A stretch of 64,000 nucleotides of DNA from Bryobacteraceae bacterium CoA2 C42 (lineage in GTDB: Bacteria; Acidobacteriota; Terriglobia; Bryobacterales; Bryobacteraceae). Every line of letters starts with the position of its first letter. Position 1 is the first letter of the stretch. The notes under the pieces are model-generated. The model was not told the DNA's origin, did no database searches, and was given only the letters and a program-made list of their open reading frames with translations. The position numbers and the translations under genes are program-made. Shown here in pieces: positions 7,108-9,862 of the stretch. Location: positions 29,121-93,120 of the forward strand of contig JAINDL010000035.1 of assembly GCA_019931245.1 (NCBI GenBank), given 5' to 3'.

Positions 7108-7515
7108 ATGGCCAAAGCAGCAGCTAAAAACGCGAAAAAGAAGGCCTTCAAAAAGAAGGAACGAAAGAACGTACCGATCGGGCTGTGCCACGTGCAGGCG
7201 ACGTTCAACAACACGATTATTACGTTTACGGATCCGACCGGGAATGTGATCGCCTGGTCGAGTTCTGGCTCTCTCGGGTTTCGTGGTTCGAGGAAGGGCA
7301 CCCCGTTTGCCGCCCAGCAGGCCTCGCTGACCGCAGCGAACAAGGCCAAAGAGTCGGGTCTGCGGACGGTGGAGGTTCGGGTGAGCGGTCCGGGGGCGGG
7401 CCGAGAGTCGGCAATCCGTGCCCTGTCGACCGCCGGGATTGAGGTTCGTTCGATCAAGGACCGGACGCCCATTCCTCACAACGGTTGCCGGCCGCCGAAG
7501 AAGCGGCGCGTCTGA
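7108..7515 (+). CDS. rpsK: 30S ribosomal protein S11
   Basis: S11 is on the platform of the small subunit near the E site. The product is 135 residues with a lysine-rich N-terminus ([20 protein letters not shown]). The core [21 protein letters not shown] near residues 29-49 and the end [21 protein letters not shown] are highly typical. It ends 174 nt before rpsD; that unusually long gap for this operon holds a structured leader, listed separately. Confidence 0.97.
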
Positions 7516-7545
7516 TCGCTCGTTCCCCTTTTTGACGACCCTGGC

Positions 7546-7672
7546 CCGTGCGTTAGCACGGTAAACTCGGTCTGTGTCATAATGTTAATTGGCGAATCTG
7601 CAGGTTTGCAGTCGTCACCAGCAAGCAGGATGAAGGCGTATGCCGTAAACTGCACCTTGAGCACGTGCTCAA
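7546..7672 (+). promoter_or_regulatory. Structured leader of rpsD with three hairpins
   Basis: Three inverted repeats are visible in the 174-nt gap before rpsD: CCGTGC-GTTA-GCACGG (7546-7561), CTGCA-GGTT-TGCAG (7598-7611) and TTGAGC-ACGT-GCTCAA (7657-7672). The last is a perfect 16-bp palindrome that can be extended by three more pairs with one bulged A, is followed by GGTTTT, and ends only a few bases before the AGGAG of rpsD. S4 is known to autoregulate through structured leaders in several phyla, so an S4 target or attenuator is the natural guess. No promoter with both boxes is convincing here. Confidence 0.5.
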
Positions 7673-7689
7673 AGGTTTTAGGAGATTGA

Positions 7690-8331
7690 ATGGCTCGTTA
7701 TAACGGACCGGTATGCCGCCTCTGTCGGCGTGAAGGAATGAAGCTCTACCTGAAGGGAGAGCGGTGTTACGGCCCCAAGTGTGCCGTGAGTGATGAAAAG
7801 AAGCGCAACTTCCCTCCTGGTCAGCATGGTCAGGCCCGGAAGCCGAAGATTCTTGGATACGGGCTCCAACTGCGCGAAAAGCAAAAGACCAAGCGGTACT
7901 TCGGCCTGCTCGAGGGGCAGTTCCGGAATATTTTTGAAAAGGCCAGCCGCTCGAAGGGCATTACAGGTGAGGTGATGTTGCAGATGCTCGAAAAGCGTCT
8001 GGACAATGTCGCTTTTCGCATCGGATTTGCTACTTCCCGCGCCGGTGCGCGGCAGGTTGTGCGTCACGGTCACCTGTTGGTGAACGGTAAGAAGGTTAAC
8101 ATTCCCTCTTATCAGGTGCGTGCCGGAGACGTCGTCTCGGTGCGGGAGAAGAGCAAAAGTAATCCTTCTATTCTAGCCTCGCGCGATGCAACGGCTCATC
8201 TGCCCTCTCCCACGTGGTTGGAGGTCGACCGCGAAAACCTAAAGGCGACGATTGCCTCCAACCCCAAGCGTGATGAGCTCGTTCAGATCCAGGTCAATGA
8301 ACAGCTGATCGTCGAACTGTACTCGAAGTAA
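7690..8331 (+). CDS. rpsD: 30S ribosomal protein S4
   Basis: S4 is a primary 16S rRNA binder at the five-way junction, and a translational repressor in many bacteria. The 213-residue product keeps a four-cysteine N-terminal module (CRLCRREG ... CYGPKC, residues 9-31), so it is the zinc-containing form. The S4 RNA-binding domain follows ([19 protein letters not shown] to VRAGDVVSV, about residues 97-155). AGGAGATTGA gives a good ribosome-binding site for ATG 7690. It lies between a structured leader and rpoA. Confidence 0.97.
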
Positions 8332-8365: not shown

Positions 8366-9385
8366 ATGTTCAAAGGCTTTCAGAAACCGAAGCGTCTGGT
8401 TGCCAATACCGAGACGCTGACCGAGCGTTATGGCATGTTCACGGCTCAGCCGTTCGAGCGGGGTTTTGGCACAACGATCGGCAACAGCCTCCGTCGTGTG
8501 CTCCTCAGTTCAATTGAGGGCGCGGCGATTACGGCGGTCCGCATTGAGGGCGTTGCCCACGAATTCAGCCCGATCCCCGGGGTGACCGAAGACGCCACCG
8601 ACATCATCCTCAATCTGAAACAGGTACCCTTCAAAATGACCTCTGATGGGGTGCACACCGCGCGGATCATCGTCGACCAGCCGGGGGAGGTGCTTTCAGG
8701 TCAAATTCAGACCGATGCGGACGTCGAAGTTCTCGACCCGCACCTTCACATTGCGACGGTAGGCGAGGGCGGACGGTTGAACATTGAAGTTCGTTTGAAG
8801 CAGGGCCGGGGCTATGTTGCGGCCGACCGTAACTTTGACGAAGATCTGCCTATCGGTTTTATTCCGATCGACTCAGTTCACTCGCCGGTGCGCAAGGTCA
8901 ACTATTCGGTCGAGGCGGCCCGCCTTGGGCAAATGACCGACTACGACAAGCTCACCCTTGAGGTCGTGACTAACGGCGCCATCTCGCCGCAGGACTCCAT
9001 CGGGATGGCGGCGAAGCTTCTCAAAGACCACATGAGCATCTTCATTAACTTTGAAGAGGTCTCCGAGGCGGTCGAGGAGCCAGTCGAGCGGGGCGTAACC
9101 GGTCAGGTCAACGAGGTTCTCAACCGCTCAGTCGAGGAGTTGGAGTTGTCCGTGCGCTCTTACAACTGCCTCAAGAATGCCAATATCCAATCGATCGGCG
9201 ATCTAGTACAGCGCTCCGAGGCCGAAATGCTGCGAACGAAGAACTTTGGGCGTAAATCGCTGAACGAGATCAAAGAGATTCTCTCCGGCCTTGGCCTTGG
9301 CTTTGGCATGAAGTTTGATTCCCAGGGACGGTTGGTCTCCCCGGTAGGCGCGCCGGTCAGCGATAGCGCGGAAATTGGCGAGTAA
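8366..9385 (+). CDS. rpoA: DNA-directed RNA polymerase subunit alpha
   Basis: The alpha subunit dimerises to start RNA polymerase assembly and contacts promoters and activators. It has 339 residues. The N-terminal assembly domain spans about 1-230, with [21 protein letters not shown] near 25-45. The C-terminal domain ([41 protein letters not shown]) follows an acidic linker. AAGGAG at 8357-8362 precedes ATG 8366 closely. The order rpsD-rpoA-rplQ is canonical. Confidence 0.98.
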
Positions 9386-9406: not shown

Positions 9407-9862
9407 ATGAGACACAATCGAGCAGGATTTAAACTAAAGCGCGATATTGGCGCGCGTCGCGCCTTGTTACGCGGCCTTGTGACCAGCGCCATCCTCGAAG
9501 AGCGCATCGTGACCACGGTTCCCAAGGCGAAGGCGGCCAAGCCGCTGGTCGAGAAAATGATCACCCTCGCCAAGCGCGACACCCTGCATTCGCGCCGGCA
9601 GGCGGCAGCGTTCCTGTTGACCCCGGCCGCCGTGCAGAAGCTGTTTGACAAGATTGGCCCCCGGTTCACCCAGCGCAATGGCGGCTACACCCGCGTAGTC
9701 CGGGTGGGCGTCCGTAAAGGCGATGGCGCCGAGACCGCGATGTTAGAGTTGGTGGGATCCGAGTTGGTTCGTCGCGCGGCCGACCGGGCCAAGCGGCGGG
9801 AAGAGCGACTGAAGCAGCTGCAGCAGGGTCAGGAAGCTGACGTCGAACAGGATACGAAGTAG
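9407..9862 (+). CDS. rplQ: 50S ribosomal protein L17
   Basis: L17 lies near the exit tunnel of the large subunit. The core MRHNRAGFKLKRDIGARRALLRGL, TTVPKAKAAKPLVEKMITLAKR and RNGGYTRVVRVGVRKGDGAETAMLELV match the family. At 151 residues it is longer than the 116-127 of many homologues because of an acidic, glutamine-rich tail (KRREERLKQLQQGQEADVEQ). It is the last ribosomal gene of the operon and is followed by a strong inverted repeat. Confidence 0.97.
   Translation: MRHNRAGFKLKRDIGARRALLRGLVTSAILEERIVTTVPKAKAAKPLVEKMITLAKRDTLHSRRQAAAFLLTPAAVQKLFDKIGPRFTQRNGGYTRVVRVGVRKGDGAETAMLELVGSELVRRAADRAKRREERLKQLQQGQEADVEQDTK

Follow-up and report, generated by a model that had tools for sequence, protein, structure and literature searches.

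A probable S4 autoregulatory leader resembling 16S rRNA helix 16 upstream of rpsD in Acidobacteriota, with a circularly permuted form

Comparative analysis of the region upstream of rpsD in a 64,000-nucleotide stretch of DNA from Bryobacteraceae bacterium CoA2 C42 (the window, to which all positions refer) revealed a conserved hairpin at 7625-7653 of the forward strand, GCAG-GAUGAA-GGC-GUAU-GCC-GUAAA-CUGC, which is identical to helix 16 (h16) of 16S rRNA in the sequence of its internal loop and in its two-stem structure. From sequence comparison, the rpsD leader very probably carries an autogenous operator for ribosomal protein uS4, in which 7625-7653 is a structural copy of h16. Three features expected of a uS4 r-leader were found here, a conserved structured RNA 5' of the gene, covariation, and likeness to the rRNA site, the last being common but not obligatory among such leaders. 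The first-pass annotation of this DNA had proposed a phylum-specific S4-binding leader, and this proposal is strongly supported, although the conserved element is 7625-7653, which was absent from its list, and not the hairpins it had named.

The rpsK-rpsD gap and its h16-like hairpin

All genes of the locus lie on the forward strand. The upstream gene rpsK (uS11) is a 135-aa open reading frame at 7108-7515, rpsD (uS4), the presumed repressor and target, encodes a 213-aa S4 protein at 7690-8331 with an ATG at 7690, and the open reading frames of rpoA (8366-9385) and rplQ (9407-9862) follow in the same direction. The sequence AGGAG at 7680-7684, 5 nt upstream of the ATG, provides the Shine-Dalgarno. 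The rpsK stop at 7515 and the rpsD start codon are separated by 174 nt, an outlier among the gaps between neighbouring ribosomal protein genes of the window, which are mostly about 16-57 nt, and the unusually long leader claimed by the earlier annotation is thus real. Gaps in relatives were delimited by tblastn using the rpsK open reading frame as query, and S4 was found in 95 of the 101 family genomes searched. In the family of the host (f1), apparently Bryobacterales or Solibacter-like judging from named loci that share 65-72% S4 identity, a long gap is the rule (median 128 nt), with a 5' half devoid of conservation and a 3' part carrying the motif. Long imperfect inverted repeats of REP/MITE-like type are present between rpsK and the h16-like element in L011, L036, L038, L044, and L046, and such repeats seem to account for much of the variation in gap length.

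Regarding transcription, an extended -10-like sequence, TGTCATAAT (7575-7583, +), is a putative internal promoter for rpsD-rpoA-rplQ; it is kept as TGTGTCATA(A/C)TG in two congeners and as TGTGCCATACTG in L031 despite diverged flanks, while the site at 7575-7583 was not called by a consensus promoter scan and a good -35 element was not seen. This conserved site suggests that rpsD-rpoA-rplQ may have an additional transcription start within the gap, in which case the leader would be roughly 100 nt long.

The lower stem of the h16-like hairpin, P1, is formed by GCAG (7625-7628) and CUGC (7650-7653) and is paired in 100% of 78 leaders. The internal loop consists of the strands GAUGAA (7629-7634) and GUAAA (7645-7649), both identical to those of h16 in the host's own 16S rRNA, and the GTAAA strand is present in 103 of 104 leaders and is the same in h16 of every 16S examined. 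The upper hairpin P2, GGC-GUAU-GCC (7635-7644, with the stem 7635-7637/7642-7644), varies freely in length and sequence among relatives with its pairing preserved. P1, the internal loop, and P2 agree with the lowest-energy structure predicted for the window RNA, and the folding energy of the leader is, taken alone, modestly unusual (z = -2.2; 4 of 200 shuffles were as good). The conservation of this hairpin, by contrast, greatly exceeds chance expectation. The entire mimic matches the leader covariance model R1 at 7621-7657 (+) with 49.5 bits and E = 1.9e-11, E-values of these models being rough by construction, and this was the sole significant match across the host genome.

The host's own 16S reads GAAC-GATGAA-GCCC-TTCG-GGGT-GTAAA-GTTC from E. 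coli position 406, corresponding to h16, which we take to span E. coli 16S 406-436. This helix belongs to the five-way junction bound by S4 and is itself contacted by the protein. The loop GANGAA/GUAAA was found in every 16S inspected. Leader and 16S h16 share this loop, a 4-bp lower stem and a variable upper stem, whereas the leader is a free-standing hairpin in mRNA whose stems and apical loop vary independently. The models R1 and R2, the latter built from more diverse leaders, were trained on leaders only. Run unfiltered on the host's rRNA locus, R1 ranked h16 first, at 12.3 bits against 5.5 for the next match, and R2 matched h16 in 14 of 14 family rRNA loci at 22-26 bits, including that of the host (26.2 bits, E = 4e-5). 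In genome-wide scans the significant matches outside leaders likewise included 16S h16 (G111, G145, and the five checked f90 genomes). A leader copying the particular 16S variant of its host was considered and rejected, the third loop residue being identical in only 3 of 18 cases. The neighbouring helices h3, h4, h17, and h18 were not recognised in the leader, and only one of the five helices of the S4 site is copied, which speaks against the S4 reading. In the ribosome, S4 binds the five-way junction of 16S rRNA and thereby nucleates 30S assembly (PMC10296100, PMC10931766).

Conservation and distribution of the canonical and permuted forms

The h16-like element is located directly 5' of rpsD in 90 of 93 sampled f1 genomes, where it appears as the near-invariant motif AAGC(A/G)GGANGAAGG...GUAAAC(U/C)GCACCU with a median distance of 31 nt between its 3' end and the rpsD start codon. 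Among these 93 leaders it was missing from G025 (L122) and G003 (L161), and L162, beside an assembly gap, contains only its 3' half; in L161 an unrelated inverted repeat fills the gap. In an alignment of 78 leaders (A1), 93.6% of cells were paired compared to 76.5% after shuffling, and P1 is paired throughout despite exchanges, 26 sequences having G-C in place of A-U and six having C-G in place of G-C. In a second alignment of 37 deliberately diverse leaders (A2), 98.6% of cells were paired, compared to 67.5% after shuffling and at most 43% with the partner slid, and double changes were found at all 8 pairs of the two helices, P1 taking, among others, the forms GCAG/CUGC, GCGG/CCGC, CCGG/CCGG, AAAG/CUUU, and UCGG/CCGA. 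The invariant part of the element in these diverse leaders is the internal loop. Conservation and covariation of the stems in relatives, the check suggested by the first-pass annotation, are thus both strong, and the lack of them that would speak against an S4 leader was not observed.

The element is present at rpsD in at least five other families of Acidobacteriota (f2, f10, f21, f69, and f91), while most other families sampled in the phylum have short rpsD gaps without it, and the 66 rpsD loci examined from other phyla all lacked it (best E 1.7). In a sample of the class, R2 gave matches in 58 of 151 genomes, comprising 29 of f1, 21 of f2, one of f91, and seven of f90. By coordinates, all 21 matches in f2 lie just upstream of rpsD, and the f91 match was confirmed at rpsD (L362); in f90, each of the five matches checked is 16S h16. 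A match on another contig of G291 (L196) lies away from rpsD and was discounted as probable chance.

The leaders of f34, f66, and f78 carry the two loop strands in reversed order, GUCC-GUAAA-CCGGC..loop..GCCGG-GACGAA-GGAC, so that P1 is closed by a loop and P2 is opened, a circular permutation of h16. A pattern search of the class containing these families gave 16 matches, of which 14 (L288-L294 and L296-L302) are located 74-84 nt before rpsD; the other two, L287 and L295, lie elsewhere and were dismissed as probably fortuitous. In the permuted form 98.5% of cells are paired, with some compensation, and the model R3 finds it in the phylum sample at E-values from 1.7e-14 to 5.5e-18. Weak R3 matches in G340 (L368 and L374; E 3e-4 and 3e-3) and elsewhere lie away from rpsD and are probably due to chance.

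The loop of the permuted hairpin can pair with sequence immediately before the Shine-Dalgarno, for example as GAACCCA/UGGGUUC, GGACCGCC/GGCGGUCC, CGACUCCG/CGGAGUCG, and CCGAUUCCG/CGGAAUCGG, and the helix between them has a mean length of 7.5 bp compared to 4.8 bp (maximum 5.6) in shuffles. Because of this complementarity a pseudoknot is predicted beside the ribosome-binding site. Taken together, it seems fairly probable that Acidobacteriota have rebuilt the h16 S4 site ahead of rpsD with two chain connectivities, canonical in f1, f2, f10, f21, f69, and f91 and permuted, with a pseudoknot, in f34, f66, and f78. If so, the GANGAA/GUAAA internal loop by itself would be the main S4 recognition unit, and a regulatory mRNA would contain a naturally circularly permuted rRNA mimic. 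The permuted version serves as a natural experiment, which suggests that what has been conserved is the internal loop and not the connectivity of the chain, and its existence opens the question of RNA recognition to direct test.

The other hairpins of the gap and alternative explanations

The three hairpins listed in the first-pass annotation do exist in the gap. Hairpin 1 (7546-7551/7556-7561) has 6 bp and the loop GUUA and hairpin 2 (7590-7617) is a two-part structure, and both were rejected as conserved elements since the genus alignment shows them to be unconserved even within the genus. The last of the three had been described as a 16-bp palindrome followed by four T. The palindrome, TTGAGCACGTGCTCAA at 7657-7672, and the TTTT at 7676-7679 are present, but the former is 16 nt long and made up of 8+8 nt, not 16 bp, so that in the RNA 6 bp would enclose a loop of 4 nt, with ACC/GGU lengthening the stem. 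It is included in a predicted hairpin, P3 (ACCUUGAGC-ACGU-GCUC(A)AAGGU, 7654-7676, +), in which the ACCU right after P1 is paired with AGGU, leaving 3 nt between the hairpin and the Shine-Dalgarno. Two congeners have lost the palindrome (CTGGGCGAGAGCTCAA and CTGAGTGAAAGCTCAA) but retain the hairpin, capped there by GAGA and GAAA loops; the palindrome would therefore act, if at all, as RNA, and it is a lineage-specific version of the less conserved P3 hairpin. The ACCU/AGGU complementarity is common in the family, reaching at least 4 bp in 86% of leaders compared to 62% after shuffling. As a covarying helix, P3 was not retained: tails swapped between sequences score nearly as well, so that it draws little support from covariation, and lone pairings such as ACGUGC/GCACGU in L169 and ACCGA/UCGGU in L174 are suggestive of it.

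The same features bear on two explanations that place the function of this region in transcription. The first-pass annotation had offered, as its alternative, an attenuator in which the palindrome hairpin and TTTT form an intrinsic terminator between rpsK and rpsD-rpoA-rplQ, and a hairpin followed by four T is indeed found at 7657-7679. However, a scan for intrinsic terminators, defined as a stem followed within 0-2 bases by at least five T in eight, detected none on the forward strand at the leader, the U-tract amounts to just four residues that run into the Shine-Dalgarno, congener L002 interrupts it (TTCT), and in other relatives the helix is not followed by a U-tract (AAGGTAAGGAG, CAGGTAAGGAG, and the like), making attenuation quite improbable. 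It is more improbable still that TTGAGCACGTGCTCAA is a DNA operator bound by a dimeric transcription factor: the dyad symmetry is perfect in the window, but it is lost in both congeners that retain the RNA hairpin, is absent elsewhere in the family, and would lie downstream of the possible promoter.

Regarding the h16-like element itself, the ligand could be other than S4, namely S11, the alpha subunit, or an rRNA-processing or assembly factor that recognizes h16. The gene order rpsK-rpsD-rpoA-rplQ is formally compatible with several ligands and h16 has further protein neighbours in the 30S subunit, yet h16 belongs to the S4 junction and the element is found directly before rpsD, and never before rpsK or rpoA, in every lineage seen. 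As S4 is moreover the known repressor of the E. coli operon and of B. subtilis rpsD (PMC10931766), another ligand is unlikely, if the least unlikely of the alternatives considered. The loop that is identical to the host's 16S could also indicate a recent 16S fragment, or an element for rRNA processing or enhanced translation, without autoregulation. Against this, h16 alone is present, the stems are unlike those of the host 16S and show covariation of their own, the variable loop base matches that of the host in only 3 of 18, and a permuted form with the same loop is not expected from a simple copied fragment; this explanation is as improbable as the DNA operator.

Comparison with known S4 leaders and proposed mechanism

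In E. coli and B. subtilis, S4 acts as a repressor of the mRNA that encodes it (PMC10931766), and S4 leaders are known or have been proposed in Gammaproteobacteria, Firmicutes, Bacteroidia, Flavobacteria, Clostridia, and Fusobacteriales (PMC7247131). In E. coli, S4 autoregulates the alpha operon containing rpsD, rpoA, and rplQ by means of a pseudoknot over a ribosome-binding site and 30S entrapment (PMC10931766). The permuted Acidobacteriota form is similar in having a predicted pseudoknot by the Shine-Dalgarno; however, the E. coli S4 site is located at rpsM and is unlike rRNA (PMC7247131), whereas the Acidobacteriota element precedes rpsD and copies h16. The B. subtilis leader is alike in that S4 represses its own rpsD through an untranslated leader (PMC10931766), and a conserved GUAA in the Firmicutes rpsD leader has been reported as an imitation of rRNA (PMC7247131). 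Compared by description, B. subtilis rpsD is not part of the alpha operon and the mimic named there is a GUAA alone, while in Acidobacteriota the whole of helix 16, with two stems and both loop strands, is found within the alpha operon. The Fusobacteriales S4 r-leader (Eckert and Weinberg, 2020) is likewise a candidate and shares the GUAA mimic, but belongs to an operon starting at rpsM and to another phylum (PMC7247131). Of the further candidate S4 leaders, the motifs of Bacteroidia and Flavobacteria have no similarity to rRNA, and that of Clostridia shares only GAAA (PMC7247131).

Searches against Rfam, including Alpha_RBS, gave no match at the gathering score in the window or in 16 relatives' loci of canonical and permuted form, and nothing relevant around the leader at E-values up to 10. 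Acidobacteria are not mentioned in the main text of PMC7247131, and no S4 leader of this phylum was found in the main texts of the open-access papers searched. A probable S4 r-leader in which an entire rRNA helix is reproduced, which occurs in several families of one phylum and has a natural circular permutation, therefore appears to be new. A phylum without a described S4 leader would thereby gain a regulatory element for an operon of ribosomal protein and RNA polymerase genes, and the element would provide a minimal candidate S4 ligand of about 30 nt, in which the part played by h16 is isolated from that of the remaining five-way junction.

With regard to mechanism, we infer that S4 in excess of free 16S rRNA would bind the h16 mimic, free 16S competing for S4, and that regulation would act on translation and not on transcription. 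Bound S4 would stabilize the mimic and the adjoining P3 (7654-7676), next to the Shine-Dalgarno at 7680, and 30S initiation at rpsD would be blocked or trapped, while in the permuted form the predicted pseudoknot would take the place of P3 in keeping the 30S subunit from starting rpsD. Expression of rpoA and rplQ might perhaps be affected through coupling.

In f21 (L185, L186, L188, and L193), a short hairpin with the stem CCGA/UCGG or CCGCU/AGCGG is present 3' of the mimic and overlaps the Shine-Dalgarno GGAGG, which suggests that it may sequester this site directly. Genome G027 has a second S4 paralogue (L175), 45% identical to the query, which lacks the N-terminal cysteines (zinc-free) and the leader element, whereas its main S4 has both the cysteines and the leader.
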